From positions 1-33,600 of the IMG/VR virus record IMGVR_UViG_3300027241_000017: a DNA stretch of 33,600 nt. The stretch is one strand, 5' to 3'. The position numbers and the translations under genes were made by a program. The DNA is from a virus. Positions 5,225-29,994 of this stretch are shown piece after piece (position 1 is the stretch's first letter; each line of letters begins with the position of its first letter). The notes beneath the pieces were generated by a model. The model worked only from the letters and a program-made list of their open reading frames with translations, did no database searches and had not been told where the DNA came from.

Positions 5225-6575
5225 TGATCCTTACACACGTAAGGTCGCAGCGTTTATAAATCCTGACTACTTTGAGGGTGTCTATCAGGCACTCTTCAAA
5301 GAGTTTACTAAGTTTATTGCTAAGTTCAATCGTCTTCCCTCTAAGGAAGCTTTCAAGATTGAACTGGACAGTACTGACCGTCTCACTGACGAGCAGTACC
5401 GTCATGCTATGGATATCCTTCCGGACATCTTCAATTACTCTGAGGAAAACTTAGAGTGGTTACTTGAGCGCACTGAGAAGTGGTGTCAAGACCGTGCGGT
5501 GTTTAATGCTGTCATGGAGTCTATCTCTATCATCGACGGCAAACACGCTGAGTTGGGTAAGAATGCTATTCCTGATGTACTGTCTAAAGCCCTGTCCGTA
5601 TCGTTCGATACTAACATTGGTCACGACTATATTGATAACGCTGATGAACGTTTTGATTTCTACCACTTGGAAGAAGAACGTCTAGAATTTGATTTAGACT
5701 ATTTCAATCGTATTACTAAAGGCGGTCTACCTAAGAAGACATTGAACATCGCTCTTGCGGGTACTGGTGTTGGTAAGTCTCTGTTCATGTGCCATATGGC
5801 AGCTTCTGCTCTGTCTCAGGGTAAGAACGTCCTATACATCACTATGGAGATGTCCGAAGAACGTATCGCAGAACGTATTGATGCGAACTTACTGAATGTC
5901 CCTATTGATCAATTAGAACATCTCAGTAAAGATTCATTTACTAAGAAGGTTCAGAATATTGCTACTAAGACTAATGGTAAGTTAATCATTAAAGAGTATC
6001 CAACTGGTTCCGCTCATGCTAATCACTTCCGTGCGTTACTGAATGAGCTAAAACTTAAACGTAATATGATACCTGATATTATTTTCATTGACTATCTGAA
6101 CATTTGTTCAAGTGCGCGTATGAAGGGTATGGGTGGGTCAATCAACTCTTATAGTTACATCAAGTCAATTGCTGAAGAGTTACGTGGACTTGCTGTCGAG
6201 TTTGACGTGCCTGTCGTGTCGGCGACACAAACTACTCGTGGTGGTTACAATAATGATGATGTCGGATTGGAAGATACGTCTGAGTCTTTTGGATTGCCTG
6301 CGACCGCAGACCTTATGTTTGCGCTCATAGTGAATGACGAACTTAAAGCGTCAAATCAGATATTAGTGAAACAGTTAAAGAACCGATATAACGACCTTGG
6401 TGCGAACCAGAGATTCGTTATCGGTGTAGATAGAAGTAAGATGCGATTGTATGATGTTGACCAGAATGATTCGCCTCTAAATAAAGAAGAGGACAATGGC
6501 CCAGCGTTCGATAATAGCGCATCTGGCCAGAGACTGTTAACGGAGAGATCTAATTTTTCTGACTTCAAACTATAA
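5154..6575 (+). CDS. 41: Replicative DNA helicase, DnaB family (T4 gp41-like)
   Basis: A 473-residue hexameric helicase that unwinds the fork and recruits primase. An N-terminal helical domain (about 1-160) precedes the RecA-like motor. Walker A is GTGVGKS (203-209), Walker B IIFIDYL (309-315), and the DnaB-type segment YITMEMSEERIAERI lies between them. The late segment VVSATQTTRGG matches the sensor region of DnaB/gp41. The ATG at 5154 has no clear Shine-Dalgarno; an in-frame GTG at 5175 is preceded by GGAG at good spacing and may be the true start, which would also shorten the overlap with the preceding gene. The C-terminus ends FSDFKL, which is acidic and aromatic but not a clear clamp motif. 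Assignment is secure. Confidence 0.92.
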   Translation: MVQLEQQVTEINLQQTILRNLLTNDPYTRKVAAFINPDYFEGVYQALFKEFTKFIAKFNRLPSKEAFKIELDSTDRLTDEQYRHAMDILPDIFNYSEENLEWLLERTEKWCQDRAVFNAVMESISIIDGKHAELGKNAIPDVLSKALSVSFDTNIGHDYIDNADERFDFYHLEEERLEFDLDYFNRITKGGLPKKTLNIALAGTGVGKSLFMCHMAASALSQGKNVLYITMEMSEERIAERIDANLLNVPIDQLEHLSKDSFTKKVQNIATKTNGKLIIKEYPTGSAHANHFRALLNELKLKRNMIPDIIFIDYLNICSSARMKGMGGSINSYSYIKSIAEELRGLAVEFDVPVVSATQTTRGGYNNDDVGLEDTSESFGLPATADLMFALIVNDELKASNQILVKQLKNRYNDLGANQRFVIGVDRSKMRLYDVDQNDSPLNKEEDNGPAFDNSASGQRLLTERSNFSDFKL

Positions 6576-6586
6576 GGAATCCTATA

Positions 6587-6775
6587 ATGGATCCAATACT
6601 ACACACCGTAATTGCGTTGGCAGTTATTGCTATTGCCTATAGGATAGGTAGACGGTCTGGATTAGCGAGCGGTATTGCCAACACTATAAATTACTTAACG
6701 AACTATGATGTGTTAACTGACGAGGATATTAAAACAGCCAATGAACGATTTGAAAATGAGCGACGCGGAAGATAA
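6587..6775 (+). CDS. Small single-pass membrane protein
   Basis: A 62-residue protein with one hydrophobic N-terminal segment (about residues 6-22, rich in Ile, Ala and Val) followed by a basic stop-transfer stretch (RIGRRSG) and an acidic-basic cytoplasmic tail. AAGGA upstream gives a good ribosome site. Small proteins of this shape are common next to replication genes in marine T4-like phages, but I know of no assigned function. It overlaps the start of the next gene. Confidence 0.75.
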   Translation: MDPILHTVIALAVIAIAYRIGRRSGLASGIANTINYLTNYDVLTDEDIKTANERFENERRGR

Positions 6776-6929
6776 AAATATATTCACCTGCCCTATAGTT
6801 GAAGTGGAAGACGGAGAGCTTGCTATAGAATTCTCTGATGAACTCATGGAAGCCCTTGACTTGAAGGTGGGCGATGTGTTACAATGGAAACAATTAATCG
6901 ATGGAAGTTTTACGTTAAACAAGAAGTGA
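6741..6929 (+). CDS. AbrB-like small protein
   Basis: A 62-residue acidic protein. The core runs VEVEDGELAIEFSDELM, then LDLKVGDVLQW, a swapped-hairpin-like beta pattern resembling SpoVT/AbrB-type DNA-binding domains and antitoxins. Similar short proteins recur in marine phages from memory. Start choice is uncertain: ATG 6741 overlaps the preceding gene, and ATG 6756 (MSDAED) is an equally good alternative; neither has a clear Shine-Dalgarno. It may be a transcription regulator, but the usual basic N-terminus of AbrB is missing here, so DNA binding is doubtful. A putative promoter for the next gene lies in its 3' half. Confidence 0.7.
   Translation: MNDLKMSDAEDKNIFTCPIVEVEDGELAIEFSDELMEALDLKVGDVLQWKQLIDGSFTLNKK
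6856..6885 (+). promoter_or_regulatory. Possible sigma-70 promoter before the oxygenase-like gene
   Basis: TTGACT at 6856-6861 and TACAAT at 6880-6885 with 18 bp spacing, 48 bp before the ATG at 6933. Each box has one mismatch to consensus and it lies inside a gene, so support is moderate. Confidence 0.4.
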
Positions 6930-6932
6930 TTT

Positions 6933-7613
6933 ATGAGCGAAGTTGTTATTAGGAATAAAGAGTTGTTAAAGGTTCTCGATGGTTTCTCGCAAGAGATGTT
7001 ATCAAAACCTTCTTACAATAATGAGAAGTATTGGACATACCACGAAGTTGAAGATATCAACAAAGGTATTTACTATACGTCTCGTGAGTATCTTGATGAT
7101 TGTCTATCTAGATACCCTGAGTTAGTAGGCCCACCCGACCGTTACTTTGCGCAACCTATCTCTAAGATGGTACGTGAAGATAAGGAAATGTGGGGAGACT
7201 TTATGCAGAAGGTCAAGTATGACTTCGCTGCGGAGATTGGAGCACACACGTCCGCATTACTCTCCTATTACCCGCCAGGCGGTTTTGTCGGATGGCATAC
7301 TAACTATGATGCGAACGCTTATCAAATACTATTCACTTGGTCTGAGACTGGTGATGGTTACTTTGAGTACTATGATAAGAAGACTGACGAAATAGTTCGT
7401 ATCCAAGATGTGCCTGGATGGCAAGCTAGACACTATTATTTTGGTTCTGGAGAAGAAGAAGATTTACACTGTTGGCACGCTGCTTACGCAGGATGTCAAC
7501 GCATTACACTAGCATATAAGTTTGTTAATGGTGGTAGTGTGAATAACCCTGAAGATGCGCAAGCGAGAGCGATGCGTGATATGTTAATTGATGAAATTGA
7601 GAGTGAAGAATGA
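6933..7613 (+). CDS. 2-oxoglutarate/Fe(II) oxygenase-like protein
   Basis: A 226-residue protein with a double-stranded beta-helix look. The segment GGFVGWHTNYDANAYQ contains the first metal-ligand histidine, and the second half has DLHCWHAAYAGCQRITLAYKF, with a His and an Arg spaced as in 2OG-Fe(II) oxygenases (distal His and 2OG-binding Arg). The usual HxD reads HTN here, so the acidic metal ligand is missing or moved to the following Asp. It may therefore be a divergent or inactive cupin. I recall the GWHTN form in many marine phage proteins. Possible targets are DNA bases or proteins; nothing in the sequence decides. It is co-directional with the small genes that follow, with an ATGA overlap to the next one. 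Confidence 0.65.
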   Translation: MSEVVIRNKELLKVLDGFSQEMLSKPSYNNEKYWTYHEVEDINKGIYYTSREYLDDCLSRYPELVGPPDRYFAQPISKMVREDKEMWGDFMQKVKYDFAAEIGAHTSALLSYYPPGGFVGWHTNYDANAYQILFTWSETGDGYFEYYDKKTDEIVRIQDVPGWQARHYYFGSGEEEDLHCWHAAYAGCQRITLAYKFVNGGSVNNPEDAQARAMRDMLIDEIESEE

Positions 7614-9448: not shown

Positions 9449-9733
9449 ATGAGTGATACTACGTTAACAATCGGTCTTTTTGTAATAGTCGCTGTGCTAG
9501 TCGGAGTGTGGTTAAGTAAGAGAGGTGAGAATACTCGAACTGTACTTACCGGCCCGTCTGAAGAAGCGAAAGAAGCAGAACGAGCATTGTTGAATGCCAT
9601 GACTGTTAAAGAACTAAAAGTCTTTATTCAACTGAAACGACAGAGTCTTGGTTTTCCGGCAGATCGTCTACCTACTAAGAAAGCAGACCTTGTAGAGTCA
9701 GCATTACAGTTATGGGCACTTCAACCGTGGTAA
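9449..9733 (+). CDS. Membrane-anchored SAP-domain protein
   Basis: A 94-residue late protein. Residues about 6-23 (LTIGLFVIVAVLVGVWL) form one membrane segment. The C-terminal half, VKELKVFIQLKRQSLGFPADRLPTKKADLVE, has the helix-turn-helix layout of a SAP domain (leucine-rich helix, Gly turn, KxDLVE helix), which usually binds DNA. A membrane-bound DNA-binding protein could tether phage DNA or capsids at the membrane, but that is speculation. A TATAAATA box lies 49 bp upstream of the ATG. The next gene overlaps its 3' end. Confidence 0.7.
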   Translation: MSDTTLTIGLFVIVAVLVGVWLSKRGENTRTVLTGPSEEAKEAERALLNAMTVKELKVFIQLKRQSLGFPADRLPTKKADLVESALQLWALQPW

Positions 9734-10395
9734 AATCATTCAATACTTACTTACAAGAAGGGGTCAATGACCCCGCGATCTTCAAGGCAATCTTTCTTGC
9801 GGGTGGGCCAGGCTCTGGTAAATCATTTATCGTAGGTAAGACTGGATTGACCTCAATGGGTTATAAAGTTGTTAACTCTGATGACGCATTCGAAGCAGCA
9901 ATGAAGAAGGCTGGGATGGAAATGAATCCCGATAATATCTTCTCTGTTCAAGGACAAGAACTTCGCGGTAAAGCGAAGGCACTAACAGGTACCAAACAGG
10001 CGATGTACATTAAAGGTCGTCTTGGTCTCGTTATCGATGGTACGGGTAAAGACCCCGACAAGATTGCTAAACAGGCAGCTTCGTTACGTGAGATTGGTTA
10101 TGATGTCGCAATGGTCTTTGTGAACACTGATGTGGACACTGCTGTTAAACGAGACGCTGAACGCGAACGTACTATCGGCGCAGCAGAGGCAACCAAATAC
10201 TGGAAAGCAGTACAACGTAATATTGGTAAGTTCCAACAGATGTTCGGTAAGAAGAACTTTCTAGTTGTGGACAACTCTGAAGGTAAAGACTACAAACAAG
10301 AGACTGTACGCGCATACCGTGATGCTACTAGGTTTACTAAGTCGCCTATAGAAAACCCTATAGCGAAGAAGTGGATCGCACAGCAGAAGAAATAG
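9712..10395 (+). CDS. P-loop kinase (zeta-toxin/PNK-like) with capsid-targeting-like N-terminus
   Basis: A 227-residue P-loop kinase. Walker A is GGPGSGKS (31-38 from the ATG). Further on come NSDDAFE, VIDGTGK and an arginine-rich lid (RDAERERT), the layout of zeta-toxin and polynucleotide-kinase folds, which phosphorylate sugars, nucleotides or RNA 5' ends. No phosphatase domain follows, unlike T4 Pnkp. The N-terminus reads VKSFNTYLQEG, close to the T4 capsid-targeting peptide, with a predicted cut after YLQE. If translation begins at GTG 9727, this peptide is exactly at the N-terminus; ATG 9712 adds five residues. It lies at the end of a late operon and is followed by an intrinsic terminator. 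Packaging in the head is inferred; the kinase fold is solid. Confidence 0.8.
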   Translation: MGTSTVVKSFNTYLQEGVNDPAIFKAIFLAGGPGSGKSFIVGKTGLTSMGYKVVNSDDAFEAAMKKAGMEMNPDNIFSVQGQELRGKAKALTGTKQAMYIKGRLGLVIDGTGKDPDKIAKQAASLREIGYDVAMVFVNTDVDTAVKRDAERERTIGAAEATKYWKAVQRNIGKFQQMFGKKNFLVVDNSEGKDYKQETVRAYRDATRFTKSPIENPIAKKWIAQQKK

Positions 10396-11560: not shown

Positions 11561-11773
11561 ATGCCTATTAAGTATAAAGACGATGTCGTCCACCACAATC
11601 GCACTACCGGTAAATTTACTACCGAGAGATTCTTCGTGAAAACACTTCAGACACCTGAACTTATCGAAGAGTATTCTAGATGTAGGACTCCTAAGATTAA
11701 AGCAAAGTTCCGTAATGAACTGGTTAAACGAGGATTCACTCAGCAAGCCATTACTGAGTTAAACGCAGCGTAA
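11561..11773 (+). CDS. Small basic protein of unknown function
   Basis: A 70-residue basic protein. The N-terminal third has beta-like strands (VVHHNRTTGKFTTERFF) and the rest is helical with several Lys and Arg (TPKIKAKFRNELVKRGF). No known family is recognised; it could bind nucleic acid. It follows tRNA-Glu and its stop overlaps the start of the zincin gene (TAATG), so the two are likely translated together. Confidence 0.6.
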   Translation: MPIKYKDDVVHHNRTTGKFTTERFFVKTLQTPELIEEYSRCRTPKIKAKFRNELVKRGFTQQAITELNAA

Positions 11774-12150
11774 TGAAATTCCGTATAGTATATCGTGAAG
11801 AAGATGGTTCTATCTTTCCTTGGCCCTCACGGTATCGAGGAGTTGTGTTATATCCTTATATCATAATGAGACCGAGAAAATTCACTACCATGAGTATTGG
11901 TGCTAATACTATGAATAATCAATTGGCACTAGAGACTTTGTTCAGACATGAATTGGAGCATTGTTACCAGATAAAACGATACGGTGTACTTAGATTCTAT
12001 TTGAGGTATATGTGGATATTTCTCAGGAAAGGTTATCGTAACCATAGTCTAGAATTGGAAGCGTCTGAAGTAGAACGTATAAAGTTAACCCCAATTGAGA
12101 GAAAATGGTTAGAACAAGGTTTTGTTGATTTATCTGATTTAGATAGTTGA
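11773..12150 (+). CDS. Zincin-like metallopeptidase (minigluzincin type)
   Basis: A 125-residue protein with the zinc-peptidase motif HELEH (HExxH) in TLFRHELEHCYQ, about residues 58-62, and a downstream LELEASE whose Glu can be the third zinc ligand. This layout matches small stand-alone gluzincins seen in phages and bacteria. It would cut proteins in the cytoplasm or process a virion protein; no signal peptide is present. The TGA stop lies inside the -35 box TTGACA of the tRNA-Asn promoter. Motif is clear; function is unknown. Confidence 0.75.
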   Translation: MKFRIVYREEDGSIFPWPSRYRGVVLYPYIIMRPRKFTTMSIGANTMNNQLALETLFRHELEHCYQIKRYGVLRFYLRYMWIFLRKGYRNHSLELEASEVERIKLTPIERKWLEQGFVDLSDLDS

Positions 12151-13683: not shown

Positions 13684-13712
13684 TTGACAGGCATCCTATA
13701 TTATGTTATTAT
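13684..13712 (+). promoter_or_regulatory. Sigma-70 promoter for tRNA-Ser and the peroxidase gene
   Basis: TTGACA at 13684-13689, 17 bp, TATTAT at 13707-13712 (one mismatch). It is 11 bp upstream of tRNA-Ser. Confidence 0.8.
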
Positions 13713-13722
13713 AGCTACAAAT

Positions 13723-13810
13723 GGAGAGTTGGCAGAGTGGTCGAATGCACCTGACTTGAAATCAGACGAACTGAAAGGTTCCGTAGGTTCGAATCCTACA
13801 CTCTCCGCCA
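13723..13810 (+). tRNA. tRNA-Ser (UGA)
   Basis: Class II tRNA. Acceptor stem GGAGAGT/ACTCTCC, anticodon loop CTTGAAA (anticodon TGA), long variable arm, T-loop GGTTCGAATCC, discriminator G and encoded CCA. Confidence 0.95.
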
Positions 13811-13845: not shown

Positions 13846-15192
13846 ATGAAAAACCTAATGTTAGTGACAGTAACATCCGTACTTCTATCCGCCTGTGGTG
13901 GAGGTACTGAAATGCCCGAGTTCATTGAAGTTCCTTCTACTACAACTCCTCCCGCCCAAACACCCGTACAGATAGAGAGCGCAAAACTGCGCGAGCTAAT
14001 CATAGTCAGTGACCTCGTACTTCCTATGAGTGACGACTATAGTAACATTCCTCAAGATGTGATGAATCCTATAACCGAGGAAAAGGTTAAATTGGGTAAA
14101 TTATTGTTCCATGAAACTGCTATGACTCTTGGTGCTAGCGAAGACCATGAGGCAACATTTTCGTGCGCATCTTGTCACAACGCTAGATCCGGATTCAAGT
14201 CCGGTATTGCTCAAGGTGTGGGTGAAGGTGGTGTCGGTAATGGTTCGAACCGTGTTAATGTCTTGGGGGCTCTCGCTGACGTACAACCTCTCGCGTCTCC
14301 TACCGCAATGAACACTGCTTACCAAGAGGTGATGTTATGGAACGGTCAGTTCGGTAATGCGGTTGATGGTATTGTCAATATAGGTGTTGATGAGTCTATA
14401 CTATCTACTCCGAATACTCCTAAAGAGAATAACGCCCGACAGTGGTCTGGACTAGAAACACAAGCAGTCGCGGGTCTTGGTGTACATCGTCTAAACGTTG
14501 GTGATGATTCTCTGCTTACAACATTACCCGAGTACCAAGAACTTGTTATGGAAATAGGTGGAGATGACTTACTTGTCACTGCCGCACAATCTATTGCCGC
14601 ATTTGAACGTACTATCTTGTCCAATGAAGCACCATTCCAGAAATGGTTGCGTGGTGATGAGGATGCGTTGTCCGAGACTGAACTGAAGGGTGCTCAAGTG
14701 TTCTTTGGTAAAGGTGACTGTGCGGGATGTCACCAAGGGCCTGCTCTTAGTTCCCCACAATATGCTACTAAGGAACAGATGTTCATGGCGGTCGGTTTCA
14801 GTGACTTAGATGTGAATGATAATATAGCAAACGCAGATGCCATCAACGATGCGGTTCGTAAAGGTCGCGGTGGGTTTACTCAAGACGAGTTTGAAGACTA
14901 TCAATTCAAAATTCCACCACTATACAATCTGACAGATTCTAACTTTATGGGTCATGGTGCGTCGTTCGCGAGTGTACGTGAAGTTGTAGAGTATAAGAAC
15001 GCAGGTGTCGCCCAAGCGGATATTCCGGAAGGTAAACTAGACTATAGATTCCGTCCATTAGGATTGACTGCTGAAGAGATTGACCAATTGGTGAAATTCA
15101 TTGAAGTATCTCTGTATGATGATAATCTAAGTAGATATGTACCTACATCATTACCTAGTGGTCAGTGTGTAGAGAATCATCCTGATTGTTAA
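13846..15192 (+). CDS. Di-haem cytochrome c peroxidase family lipoprotein (CcpA/MauG-like)
   Basis: A 448-residue exported protein. Residues 1-17 are a lipoprotein signal with lipobox LSAC (Cys17); Gly at +2 predicts sorting to the outer membrane. Two c-type haem sites are visible: C107-A-S-C110-H111 and C292-A-G-C295-H296. The region FKIPPLYNLTDSNFMGHGASFASV near residues 365-388 matches the conserved FRTPSLRN...MHxGxF block of bacterial di-haem peroxidases. The family reduces hydrogen peroxide with electrons from cytochrome c, or, in MauG-type members, oxidises other substrates. Haem attachment would need the host Ccm system. The open frame runs back through tRNA-Ser; ATG 13846 is chosen because it gives a proper signal peptide. 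Such a gene is not expected in a T4-like phage and was probably taken from a host. Confidence 0.93.
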   Translation: MKNLMLVTVTSVLLSACGGGTEMPEFIEVPSTTTPPAQTPVQIESAKLRELIIVSDLVLPMSDDYSNIPQDVMNPITEEKVKLGKLLFHETAMTLGASEDHEATFSCASCHNARSGFKSGIAQGVGEGGVGNGSNRVNVLGALADVQPLASPTAMNTAYQEVMLWNGQFGNAVDGIVNIGVDESILSTPNTPKENNARQWSGLETQAVAGLGVHRLNVGDDSLLTTLPEYQELVMEIGGDDLLVTAAQSIAAFERTILSNEAPFQKWLRGDEDALSETELKGAQVFFGKGDCAGCHQGPALSSPQYATKEQMFMAVGFSDLDVNDNIANADAINDAVRKGRGGFTQDEFEDYQFKIPPLYNLTDSNFMGHGASFASVREVVEYKNAGVAQADIPEGKLDYRFRPLGLTAEEIDQLVKFIEVSLYDDNLSRYVPTSLPSGQCVENHPDC

Positions 15193-15237: not shown

Positions 15238-15313
15238 GGGGTTATAGCTCAGCTGGGAGAGCGCCTGCCTTGCACGCAGGAGGTCAACGGTTCGATCCCG
15301 TTTAACTCCACCA
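15238..15313 (+). tRNA. tRNA-Ala (UGC)
   Basis: Acceptor stem GGGGTTA/TAACTCC with one G-T pair, D-arm GCTCAGCTGGGAGAGC, anticodon stem CCTGC/GCAGG around CTTGCAC (anticodon TGC), T-loop GGTTCGATCCC and encoded CCA. A structured RNA begins directly after its CCA. Confidence 0.95.
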
Positions 15314-15496
15314 AAATCCCTAACGGGTACAGGACTAGTACTGTTAAGACAATGTGGAAACTGTTGAATCTCTCAATACGCGCATAGTTTAAATCTAAAT
15401 GCCGCAACAGTTTAGTGACCATGAAAGCTCACACCACATTTTACCGTCTAACTTATAAAAGTACATTCCACAGTCCTGTGCCCGTCGGGGACTTTT
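15314..15496 (+). ncRNA. Structured RNA joined to the 3' end of tRNA-Ala
   Basis: About 180 nt with no credible reading frame but nested complementary arms. The closing stem pairs 15317-15336 with 15472-15491 (ACGGGTACAGGACT with AGTCCTGTGCCCGT, one wobble, extended by TCCC/GGGA past one mismatch). Inside, GTAC pairs 15338-15341 with 15461-15464, GTT-AGAC near 15343-15350 pairs with GTCTAAC at 15446-15452, AATGTGG 15351-15357 pairs with CCACATT 15434-15440, and AAACTGTTG 15358-15366 pairs with CAACAGTTT 15405-15413. A small GTGA/TCAC hairpin (15415-15432) completes a three-way junction. The outer stem ends in CTTTTAT like a terminator. Trimming of the tRNA would set the 5' end. No known family is recognised. 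Confidence 0.7.
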
Positions 15497-15519: not shown

Positions 15520-15548
15520 TTGACATTAAAGAATACGCCTGTTATAAT
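15520..15548 (+). promoter_or_regulatory. Consensus sigma-70 promoter for the exonuclease gene
   Basis: TTGACA at 15520-15525, 17 bp, TATAAT at 15543-15548, 28 bp before the ATG. Confidence 0.85.
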
Positions 15549-27647: not shown

Positions 27648-27983
27648 ATGAAAGTTATAGATTGCTCCTCCTACAAAATTGTTATCTTCGATGTCGCGTC
27701 TGATCTGACATCTTTCCTCGATGAGGGACACGATGATAGCAAATTGATATATGTATCGCTTGACGGTACAGACACCACACTACTATCCCCCGATAGGTTC
27801 TTGGTCAAAAACCGCAATAGCTCTTTTCTCAATCATATGATGTGGGAAGGTCTGTTAGACGAAGATGAACAAGACGAATATATAATGAACCGTTGTGAAA
27901 AGTTTTTCAATGATGGCAAACAAATGCTAATAGAAGATTACGACTTCATTGAAGACGAACCATTCTATGATTATTCCAGATAA
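27648..27983 (+). CDS. Hypothetical acidic protein upstream of nrdA
   Basis: A 111-residue acidic protein. It begins with beta-like strands (MKVIDCSSYKIVIFDV) and ends in an acidic and aromatic stretch (EDYDFIEDEPFYDYS). No motif or family is recognised. It is the first gene after the promoter at 27583 and lies 13 bp before nrdA, so it may be co-expressed with ribonucleotide reductase. The acidic, aromatic tail could mimic DNA or bind a protein partner, but nothing more can be said. Confidence 0.65.
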   Translation: MKVIDCSSYKIVIFDVASDLTSFLDEGHDDSKLIYVSLDGTDTTLLSPDRFLVKNRNSSFLNHMMWEGLLDEDEQDEYIMNRCEKFFNDGKQMLIEDYDFIEDEPFYDYSR

Positions 27984-27996
27984 AAAAAGAGTCGTT

Positions 27997-29994
27997 ATGA
28001 ATATTAAAATGGACACGGGTCGCGATGACCTATTGACTGATTATGCCACAGGTATGTTGAAAGACTTTTACTTACGCCCAGAAGAAGATTCCCCGCAAGA
28101 AGGATATGCTCGAGCGGCTATTGCTTGGTCATCGTACAAGGGAGTGTTAGACGAAGCACTAGCACAGAGATTGTATGATTATGTAAGCAAAAAATGGTTC
28201 ATGTTCGCATCCCCTGTACTATCTAACGCTCCAGATAAAGATGGTAAGTCTCGTGGACTACCCATATCATGTTTTCTCACTTTCGTACCGGACACCCTCG
28301 AAGGACTGATCGACCATACCACAGAGTTGCGATGGCTGTCTGTTATGGGTGGTGGTGTAGGTGGACATTGGTCGGACGTTCGTACAGTCTCAGACATAGC
28401 GCCTGGCCCGATTCCTTTCTTACACACAGTAGACGCAGACATGATTGCTTATCGTCAAGGAAAGACGCGTAAGGGTTCATATGCGGCATACCTAGATGTA
28501 CATCATCCAGACATTATAGAATTCTTGAACATTCGTATTCCTACGGGTGACGTTCAACGCAAAGCATTGAATATTCATAATGCGATTAATATTACCGACG
28601 AGTTCATGGCGGCCGTATTGAACGATACAACTTTCGATCTGCGTGACCCGAGTAATGGTTCGGTAAAAGAATCTGTCAATGCCCGTAAATTATGGGAACG
28701 AATCCTTGAGGTTAGATTCCGTACAGGCGAACCATACCTGAATTTCATTGACACTGCGAACCGTGGTTTGCCGATGAGTTTAAAGGAGAAGGGGTTAAAG
28801 ATACATGGTTCTAATCTATGTAACGAGATTCATTTACCCACTAGCGAAGACCGTACGGCAGTATGTTGTCTATCGTCCCTCAACTTAGAATACTATGATG
28901 AGTGGAAAGACACTACTATTGTTGCTGATATTATTACTATGCTTGATAATGTCATTGATTACTTCATAGAACATGCGCCTGACCATATCTCACGTGCTCG
29001 TTTTTCCGCATCACAGGAACGTTCGTTAGGTTTAGGTGCGATGGGATTCCACTCTTTGTTACAAAAACATGGAGTCGCATGGGAATCTGACAAGGCGAAA
29101 GAGATTAACGATGTAGTATTCAAAAATATCCAAAAACAGGCTACTGCGGAATCACTTCGTTTAGGTAAGGAACGTGGAGAGGCACCAGACATGGAAGGTA
29201 CTGGTATGAGAAACGCGCACTTGATTGCCATTGCGCCTAATGCCTCGTCCGGTGTTATACTATCAACCAGTCCTTCTATAGAACCATTGAAGGCCAATGC
29301 GTACACTCATAGAACTCGCGCTGGTTCCTTTTTAGTCAAGAACGTTTACCTTAATCAGTTATTGTCTGATAAGGGGTACAATAACGACTCTATATGGACT
29401 TCTATCATCACCAATAAAGGTTCGGTACAACACTTACCGTTCTTGAACGAAGGTGAGAAGGCGGTATTTAAGACTGCGCAAGAGTTAGACCAGAACTGGG
29501 TCATAGAGCACGCTGCTGACCGTCAGAAGTATATCTGTCAAGGTCAATCGGTTAACTTGTTCTTCCCGGCAGGTGCGCCTAAGCGTTACGTAAACAAGGT
29601 TCATTTCAATGCTTGGAAGAAAGGTCTGAAGGGTCTGTACTACCTGCGAACAGAGGCGACTTCCCGTGCGGAAACTGTATCTGATAAAGTAGAACGCGTA
29701 GCACTTCAGAGTGACAGTCGATCTATCATATACGGTAAGACAGGTTGTCCATACTGTGAAATGGCGAGAGATGAATTAACTCTGCGAGGAATGCCGTTCG
29801 ACTATATTGACTTAAAGGAATCAGGTAAGACTGCTGCCGAAGTTACGGGTCGAGATGTTACCACAGTACCACAGATATATATTGATGGAAAGTACATCGG
29901 TGGATACGAAGACTTGATGAGTAATCTAGCGGATGGTGGTGGATTTCAAACAGGTAATGAGGAGGACAATGAGTGTCGGGCTTGCGAAGGTTAG
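27997..29994 (+). CDS. nrdA: Ribonucleotide reductase alpha subunit fused to glutaredoxin
   Basis: A 665-residue fusion. ATG 27997 is chosen because AAAGAG precedes it; ATG 27967 would add ten residues. The catalytic core (1-560) carries the class I cysteines in GLPISCF, GSNLCNEI (radical Cys with its Asn and Glu) and AVCCLSS, plus the tyrosine pair in GLYYLRTE. There is no N-terminal ATP-cone, so the usual dATP off-switch is missing. Residues about 575-650 are a glutaredoxin: IIYGKTGCPYCEMA (CPYC site), TTVPQIYIDG (cis-Pro loop), IGGYEDL. The protein ends NECRACEG, a CxxC tail like that of NrdA proteins, so the glutaredoxin sits between core and swinging tail. It reduces ribonucleotides to deoxyribonucleotides with NrdB. 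The SGNH gene starts inside its last codons. Confidence 0.95.
   Translation: MNIKMDTGRDDLLTDYATGMLKDFYLRPEEDSPQEGYARAAIAWSSYKGVLDEALAQRLYDYVSKKWFMFASPVLSNAPDKDGKSRGLPISCFLTFVPDTLEGLIDHTTELRWLSVMGGGVGGHWSDVRTVSDIAPGPIPFLHTVDADMIAYRQGKTRKGSYAAYLDVHHPDIIEFLNIRIPTGDVQRKALNIHNAINITDEFMAAVLNDTTFDLRDPSNGSVKESVNARKLWERILEVRFRTGEPYLNFIDTANRGLPMSLKEKGLKIHGSNLCNEIHLPTSEDRTAVCCLSSLNLEYYDEWKDTTIVADIITMLDNVIDYFIEHAPDHISRARFSASQERSLGLGAMGFHSLLQKHGVAWESDKAKEINDVVFKNIQKQATAESLRLGKERGEAPDMEGTGMRNAHLIAIAPNASSGVILSTSPSIEPLKANAYTHRTRAGSFLVKNVYLNQLLSDKGYNNDSIWTSIITNKGSVQHLPFLNEGEKAVFKTAQELDQNWVIEHAADRQKYICQGQSVNLFFPAGAPKRYVNKVHFNAWKKGLKGLYYLRTEATSRAETVSDKVERVALQSDSRSIIYGKTGCPYCEMARDELTLRGMPFDYIDLKESGKTAAEVTGRDVTTVPQIYIDGKYIGGYEDLMSNLADGGGFQTGNEEDNECRACEG

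Follow-up and report, generated by a model that had tools for sequence, protein, structure and literature searches.

Organization of the locus

The stretch of DNA analyzed here (hereinafter, the window) covers positions 1 to 33,600 of the IMG/VR record IMGVR_UViG_3300027241_000017. It contains a gene for a di-haem lipoprotein that lies, as the preliminary description had it, between two tRNA genes, 35 nt past the end of the first and 45 nt ahead of the start of the second. The features of this locus are as follows.

13684..13712, + strand: near-consensus sigma-70 promoter TTGACA-17-TATTAT (11/12 matches), ahead of the tRNA-Ser gene and the peroxidase gene
13723..13810, + strand: tRNA-Ser(UGA), ending 35 nt before the peroxidase start codon
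13846..15192, + strand: predicted di-haem lipoprotein gene of the CCP_MauG superfamily (448-aa ORF), assigned by Pfam match and fold and kept in 63 viral contigs
13846..13896, + strand: predicted signal peptide and lipobox LSAC, Cys17 followed by Gly; N-terminus MKNLMLVTVTSVLLSAC-GGG
14164..14178, + strand: first haem site CASCH, residues 107 to 111, in the peroxidatic (P-haem) domain; invariant in 139 homologues
14338..14340, + strand: Trp165, aligned with the haem-bridging Trp of bacterial peroxidases and MauG; invariant in 139 homologues
14485..14490, + strand: His214-Arg215, near-invariant, aligned where canonical enzymes have Pro-x-Glu
14719..14733, + strand: second haem site CAGCH, residues 292 to 296, in the electron-transfer (E-haem) domain; invariant in 139 homologues
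14992..14997, + strand: Tyr383-Lys384, with Lys aligned at the sixth-ligand position of the E-haem
15238..15313, + strand: tRNA-Ala(UGC), starting 45 nt past the peroxidase stop codon

The lipobox Cys is found in all 62 full-length phage copies of the protein and is always followed by Ser or Gly. The window protein, with its LSAC-G sequence, has the lipobox Cys and no Asp at position +2, so sorting to the outer membrane is expected by the Lol rule. Both CXXCH motifs are retained together with the lipobox Cys in 62 of the 62 full-length phage homologues, which is far beyond chance, and no close relative without a haem motif was found. Judging from its sequence, the peroxidase-like ORF codes for a secreted, lipid-anchored protein of the CCP_MauG superfamily that carries two covalent c-type haems; the preliminary description had proposed the lipoprotein nature, the two haem sites, and the superfamily, and all three have held up.

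In the peroxidase-carrying phages, the tRNA-Ala gene is followed by a conserved structured RNA of ∼150 to 200 nt (positions 15314-15496 of the window, + strand), with a core like GATCTCTCAA..CGTGCATG..AAATGCC. It has a folding z-score of -6.45 and compensatory changes in 8 of the 17 consensus pairs (19 phages, alignment A2). This RNA had no match in Rfam, and its core was not found in the gene-lacking relatives or the bacterial loci that were compared.

Superfamily assignment and fold

The ORF product matched the Pfam family CCP_MauG (PF03150) with a score of 74.2 bits against the cut-off of 25.6 (E = 2.2e-20). Searching the solved structures with phmmer retrieved the bacterial di-haem peroxidases 1iqc (2e-16) and 3o5c (6e-16), and the profile of the family reached 4e-36 against solved enzymes of this kind. 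An AlphaFold2 model built from a 46-sequence alignment (pLDDT 83.4, pTM 0.85) matched 68 PDB chains at E values up to 0.001 in a Foldseek search. The top match was the Neisseria CcpR in its active mixed-valence form (6fu3; E = 5e-16, probability 1.00); BthA was matched at 3e-15 and MauG lower, at 1e-10.

Among the NCBIfam models, the best matches, all of them below threshold, were those of the modifying MauG-like families, namely, the MauG-like protein of the His-Xaa-Ser system (TIGR03981; 109.6 bits against the cut-off of 340), MbnH (TIGR04039; 98.4 bits against 362.85), and MauG itself (TIGR03791; 84.2 bits against the equivalog cut-off of 443.85).

Candidate haem ligands and active-site residues

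Similarly to the canonical cytochrome c peroxidases, or CCPs (CcpA/CcpR; structures 6fu3, 3o5c, and 1iqc), the phage enzyme has a two-domain di-haem fold with the N-terminal P-haem followed by the C-terminal E-haem, a bridging Trp, and export to the cell envelope. In contrast to them, it has Lys where they have Met at the E-haem ligand position, lacks both an aligned catalytic Glu and an equivalent of His71, contains an insertion between Trp165 and Gln206, bears a lipid anchor, and is encoded by a phage. These positions were compared in 139 homologues, of which 62 came from phages, 12 from alteromonads, and 65 from other sources.

Canonical CCPs use Met as the sixth ligand of the E-haem, and in MauG and BthA this role falls to Tyr (PMC6405878). 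Lys384 aligns to this position without gaps, and Lys is found there in 62/62 phage, 12/12 alteromonad, and 55/65 other homologues, the rest of the latter having Phe or Ile. In nearly all homologues this Lys is preceded by Tyr (Tyr383), which one of the profile alignments prefers, introducing a gap to reach it, and either residue may be the ligand. At the position of the catalytic Glu (Glu114 type, within the EQAxGPIxNPxEM block), the aligned residue is Leu or Met, in a part of the alignment that is weak. The His214-Arg215 pair, whose His is invariant across the 139 homologues, falls in the region of this block, and the two can be considered candidate acid-base residues. Gln206, which aligns with the conserved distal Gln, is kept. 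The residue alignment revealed no equivalent of the distal His71 of PaCcpA, with Glu127 or Asp in its place; the P-haem site may therefore not need reductive activation to be open. Given the replacement of Met by Lys at the E-haem and the lack of an aligned catalytic Glu, catalysis cannot be transferred to these proteins from the canonical CCPs, and the strict designation as a di-haem cytochrome c peroxidase, used in the preliminary description, is not established by the sequence.

Lys and the His-Arg pair are common to the bacterial relatives as well, so they mark an unnamed subfamily that was not made by phages; a phage-specific gain or loss of catalytic residues was ruled out on the same grounds. 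The same alteromonad genomes also encode canonical Met-type (L189) and Tyr-type (L188 and L190) enzymes, which makes the Lys-type proteins a separate subfamily. No solved structure and no named NCBIfam model of this subfamily were found in the structure and NCBIfam profile searches. The current analysis points to its presence in the chromosomes of Alteromonadaceae and Bacteroidota, where its unnamed lipoproteins (L045 to L124) show ∼40 to 57% identity to the phage copies and have the same Lys, Trp, His-Arg, haem motifs, and lipobox, the phage copies falling inside the subfamily. The chromosomal members are single genes without conserved neighbors, and no operon partner common to the family was seen across the bacterial loci examined, whereas the phage copies group in a clade of their own and reside beside phage tRNA genes.

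The preliminary description also offered a MauG-type enzyme as an option. Proteins of the MauG/BthA/MbnH type (3l4m and 6e1c; PMC6405878) belong to the same superfamily as the phage enzyme, likewise lack the Met ligand, and probably share a P-haem without a strong sixth ligand. A modifier of this kind would use H2O2 to oxidize residues such as Trp or Tyr in an envelope protein of the host without any detoxification; its target could possibly be a receptor or a porin, with a superinfection block or a change of the cell surface as the result. The order of the subthreshold NCBIfam matches and the presence of a residue other than Met as the aligned E-haem ligand are consistent with such an activity, and the outer-membrane anchor would put the enzyme beside the surface proteins. 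Lipoproteins that serve in exclusion are known from phages, as exemplified by Llp of phage T5. However, the scores of 84 to 110 bits are far below the cut-offs of 340 to 444 bits, the aligned ligand position holds Lys rather than Tyr (although Tyr383 is only one residue off), and there are no mau, mbn, or His-Xaa-Ser genes in the neighborhood. Moreover, neither a conserved adjoining partner in bacteria nor an obvious partner common to all gene-carrying phages was found. On balance, a protein-modifying role appears unlikely.

A role outside both activities has a similarly low standing. The Lys-type subfamily might represent a host-type envelope redox protein that neither reduces H2O2 nor modifies proteins and instead oxidizes small molecules or metals, for example, or only shuttles electrons. 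Its ligand and catalytic positions are unlike those of all the characterized members that were compared, and it comes from a subfamily for which there is neither a structure nor a named model; yet the peroxidase fold, the bridging Trp, and Gln206 are all retained, and this explanation is viewed as rather improbable.

Distribution of the gene in phages

Two scans of IMG/VR revealed relatives of the peroxidase gene in 63 contigs, with 48 to 100% identity, usually in the same place. These included contigs of 137, 145, 151, and 160 kb, each with a single copy. A copy with 51% identity, annotated as “hypothetical protein,” is encoded in the complete genome of Phage C48C1 (156 kb; Pantevenvirales, Kyanoviridae), where it occupies the same place as in the window, with tRNA-Ala and then the exonuclease gene downstream. 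The UvsX protein of the window is 82% identical to that of Phage C48C1 and less than 60% identical to that of every other phage. The most divergent copies (L034, L036, L174, and L175/L178) are bordered by homologues of T4-like phage genes. The gene has viral genes on both sides and is under selection, as would be expected of a phage auxiliary metabolic gene.

Genes of such type are often contaminants in viral sequence sets, and bacterial DNA joined to a phage contig could in principle account for the locus. However, no evidence of this was found: identical or syntenic copies are present in independent assemblies, in a total of 63 contigs including those of 137 to 160 kb, as well as in a complete phage genome, and T4-like flanks are seen even around the divergent copies. 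The chance of an artefact can be regarded as negligible, and the phage residence claimed in the preliminary description is confirmed.

The suggestion that the gene falls outside the known T4-like gene sets has stood as far as it could be tested, with no PHROGs family for the gene, no match to the model in the BFVD viral structure library, and a single genome, that of Phage C48C1, in INPHARED. Two further INPHARED matches at 25% identity, to Salmonella and Escherichia “phage” contigs (H2 and H3), are unverified, unannotated drafts and were left out. No relevant report of a cytochrome c peroxidase or MauG carried by a phage was found in the open-licence papers that were searched. Enzymes of this class are known, but that literature yielded no description of a phage-borne clade of them or of the Lys-type active site.

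The distribution of the gene was further surveyed in loci anchored on the neighboring exonuclease gene. In all 35 such loci that contain the peroxidase gene, it is flanked by tRNA genes, in nearly every case with tRNA-Ser(UGA) on the upstream side and tRNA-Ala on the downstream side. Another 31 exonuclease-anchored loci, with ∼3 to 6 kb of upstream sequence, lack the peroxidase gene; no tRNA gene is seen in that stretch in 30 of these, and the remaining one (L238) has tRNA genes at a distance of ∼5 kb. A search of nine entire contigs of the type lacking the gene gave no peroxidase match anywhere. Since the presence of the gene tracks that of the upstream tRNAs, it can be assigned to a variant of this phage group that is rich in tRNA genes. 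The presence/absence pattern follows phage relatedness and does not represent a count of independent events. In L034 and L036, the peroxidase gene is found without any nearby tRNA genes.

Selection and promoters

By its dN/dS values, which range from 0.05 to 0.35 (Nei-Gojobori, 12 pairs) with the highest coming from a very close pair, the peroxidase gene is under purifying selection. Nearly all of the tRNA-flanked relatives have a sigma-70 promoter with 10 to 12 consensus matches, either directly before the gene (with the -10 element ∼49 nt before the ATG) or before tRNA-Ser, and these promoters score above the mean, and usually above the maximum, of shuffled sequences. Such sigma-70-type promoters suggest transcription by the unmodified host polymerase and, hence, early in infection. 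A perfect sigma-70 consensus with an extended TG (12/12) is located at positions 15520-15548 (+ strand), ahead of the PD-(D/E)XK exonuclease gene.

These data bear on the possibility that the gene is a passive cargo that was picked up at a tRNA hotspot and is of no use to the phage. Its site is indeed in a variable tRNA region, and related phages without this region lack the gene. However, purifying selection over deep divergence, the existence of one long-lived phage clade, and the conservation of the promoter and motifs make a purely passive presence very unlikely. The preliminary description viewed the gene as cargo gained at a tRNA site; the location is as described, but the gene is not a one-off in this contig. 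It is an old conserved gene of a marine T4-like phage lineage (Pantevenvirales, relatives of Phage C48C1).

Probable origin and gene transfer

A phylogeny, recommended earlier as a means of finding the donor, placed the phage copies, which can be one clade, next to chromosomal genes of Alteromonadaceae. In the 67-row maximum-likelihood tree, the phage copies, a gene from a Haliea metagenome-assembled genome (L046), and a Glaciecola gene (L057) formed one clade (100/98). This clade adjoined another Glaciecola gene (L047) inside a larger clade dominated by Alteromonadaceae (100/99), and Bacteroidota fell outside the latter. The AU test did not reject a clade of all phage copies plus L046 (p = 0.146) and rejected a phage clade without L046 (p = 2.6e-59).

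The L046 gene (positions 5845-7347) is 77% identical to one of the phage copies. Its neighbors are alaS, lysC, and a host tRNA-Ser, with no other phage genes, which rules out a mis-binned phage contig. Haliea could also be ruled out as the donor, given that L046 is nested in the phage clade and that the gene is found in only 1 of the 140 genomes of its family. The L046 gene likely reflects a phage-to-bacterium transfer. The best reading of the tree appears to be an old acquisition from an Alteromonadaceae-like donor, followed by a later transfer from a phage to Haliea.

Phage-encoded cytochrome c

An exported mono-haem cytochrome c of 103 aa (CAGCH motif; Pfam Cytochrom_C, 25.4 bits against the cut-off of 21.3) is encoded in three of the peroxidase-carrying phage contigs, namely, G004 (L166/L267/L305), L307, and L308. 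Its gene is located 4.9 to 7.5 kb upstream of the peroxidase gene, and the protein is 90% identical between the two phage types (G004 versus L307/L308). More distant copies (46 to 53%) were found in further T4-like contigs, in which no peroxidase gene was detected. The copies are located as follows.

L166, 182-490; L267, 267-578; L015, 5094-5402; and L309 to L322: phage mono-haem cytochrome c genes

The cytochrome c gene is absent from the window, two other large peroxidase-carrying contigs, and most of the relatives examined, which rules it out as a universal partner; two gene-lacking contigs that were inspected encode no exported CXXCH protein. It is plausible that, where present, the phage cytochrome c serves as an electron donor for the peroxidase. 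Its occurrence supports periplasmic electron transfer as a putative theme of these phages, but the protein is not a fixed partner of the peroxidase.

Proposed function

The favored interpretation is that the enzyme acts early, at the outer membrane, as an H2O2 peroxidase or an electron sink. Because the residues at the ligand and catalytic positions are changed, the H2O2 step is in real doubt, and the probability of this interpretation is put at about 0.5; the MauG-like activity is held to be unlikely. The gene would be expressed soon after infection from its sigma-70-type promoter, and its product would be exported and anchored by the host Sec/Lol system. Haem attachment would be carried out by the host Ccm system, which implies a Gram-negative host that has this system and is most likely a gammaproteobacterium close to Alteromonadaceae or Halieaceae. 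Electrons could then flow from a periplasmic cytochrome c, made by the host and in some phages also by the phage, to the C-terminal haem, with H2O2 or a similar oxidant being reduced at the N-terminal haem. This could shield both the phage and the cell it has infected from peroxide and provide an extra electron outlet for the respiratory chain during phage replication.

A more far-reaching possibility, with the odds against it, is that the phage clade, with its Lys-ligated E-haem and the His-Arg pair replacing the catalytic Glu, is a mechanistically new branch of the superfamily. In this view, T4-like phages would use it to set up a redox system in the cell envelope early in infection, in some cases supplying the cytochrome c donor themselves.

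Phage auxiliary metabolic genes for electron transfer include, for example, the photosynthesis and plastocyanin genes of cyanophages. The peroxidase gene resembles them in being a virus-borne, host-like redox gene under purifying selection; in contrast to them, it codes for a covalent di-haem c-type envelope enzyme, and its hosts are probably nonphotosynthetic. To our knowledge, no well-studied phage gene acts in the periplasmic redox chain or belongs to the di-haem peroxidase class. Should the favored interpretation hold, the reach of marine T4-like phages would extend to the redox chain in the periplasm of the bacteria they infect, and infection would be linked, in a direct and testable way, to hydrogen peroxide or respiration in surface waters.

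Other features near the peroxidase locus

The tRNA region also codes for small HExxH-type proteins (window, 11773-12150, + strand; L166, 4613-4990), neither of which had a Pfam match. In most peroxidase-carrying phages, this is a 126-aa lipoprotein with a HEVAHC motif; in the window, it is a non-lipoprotein with RHELEHC. Another ORF of the window (27949-29994, + strand) encodes the large subunit of ribonucleotide reductase with a C-terminal glutaredoxin-like domain (GKTGCPYC...VPQIYIDG), an apparent NrdA-glutaredoxin fusion as read from the translation. A P-loop kinase of the Zeta-toxin/AAA_33 type is encoded at positions 9712-10395 (+ strand) of the window and at 7316-8002 of L267; in contig G004, the homologue immediately precedes the peroxidase gene.
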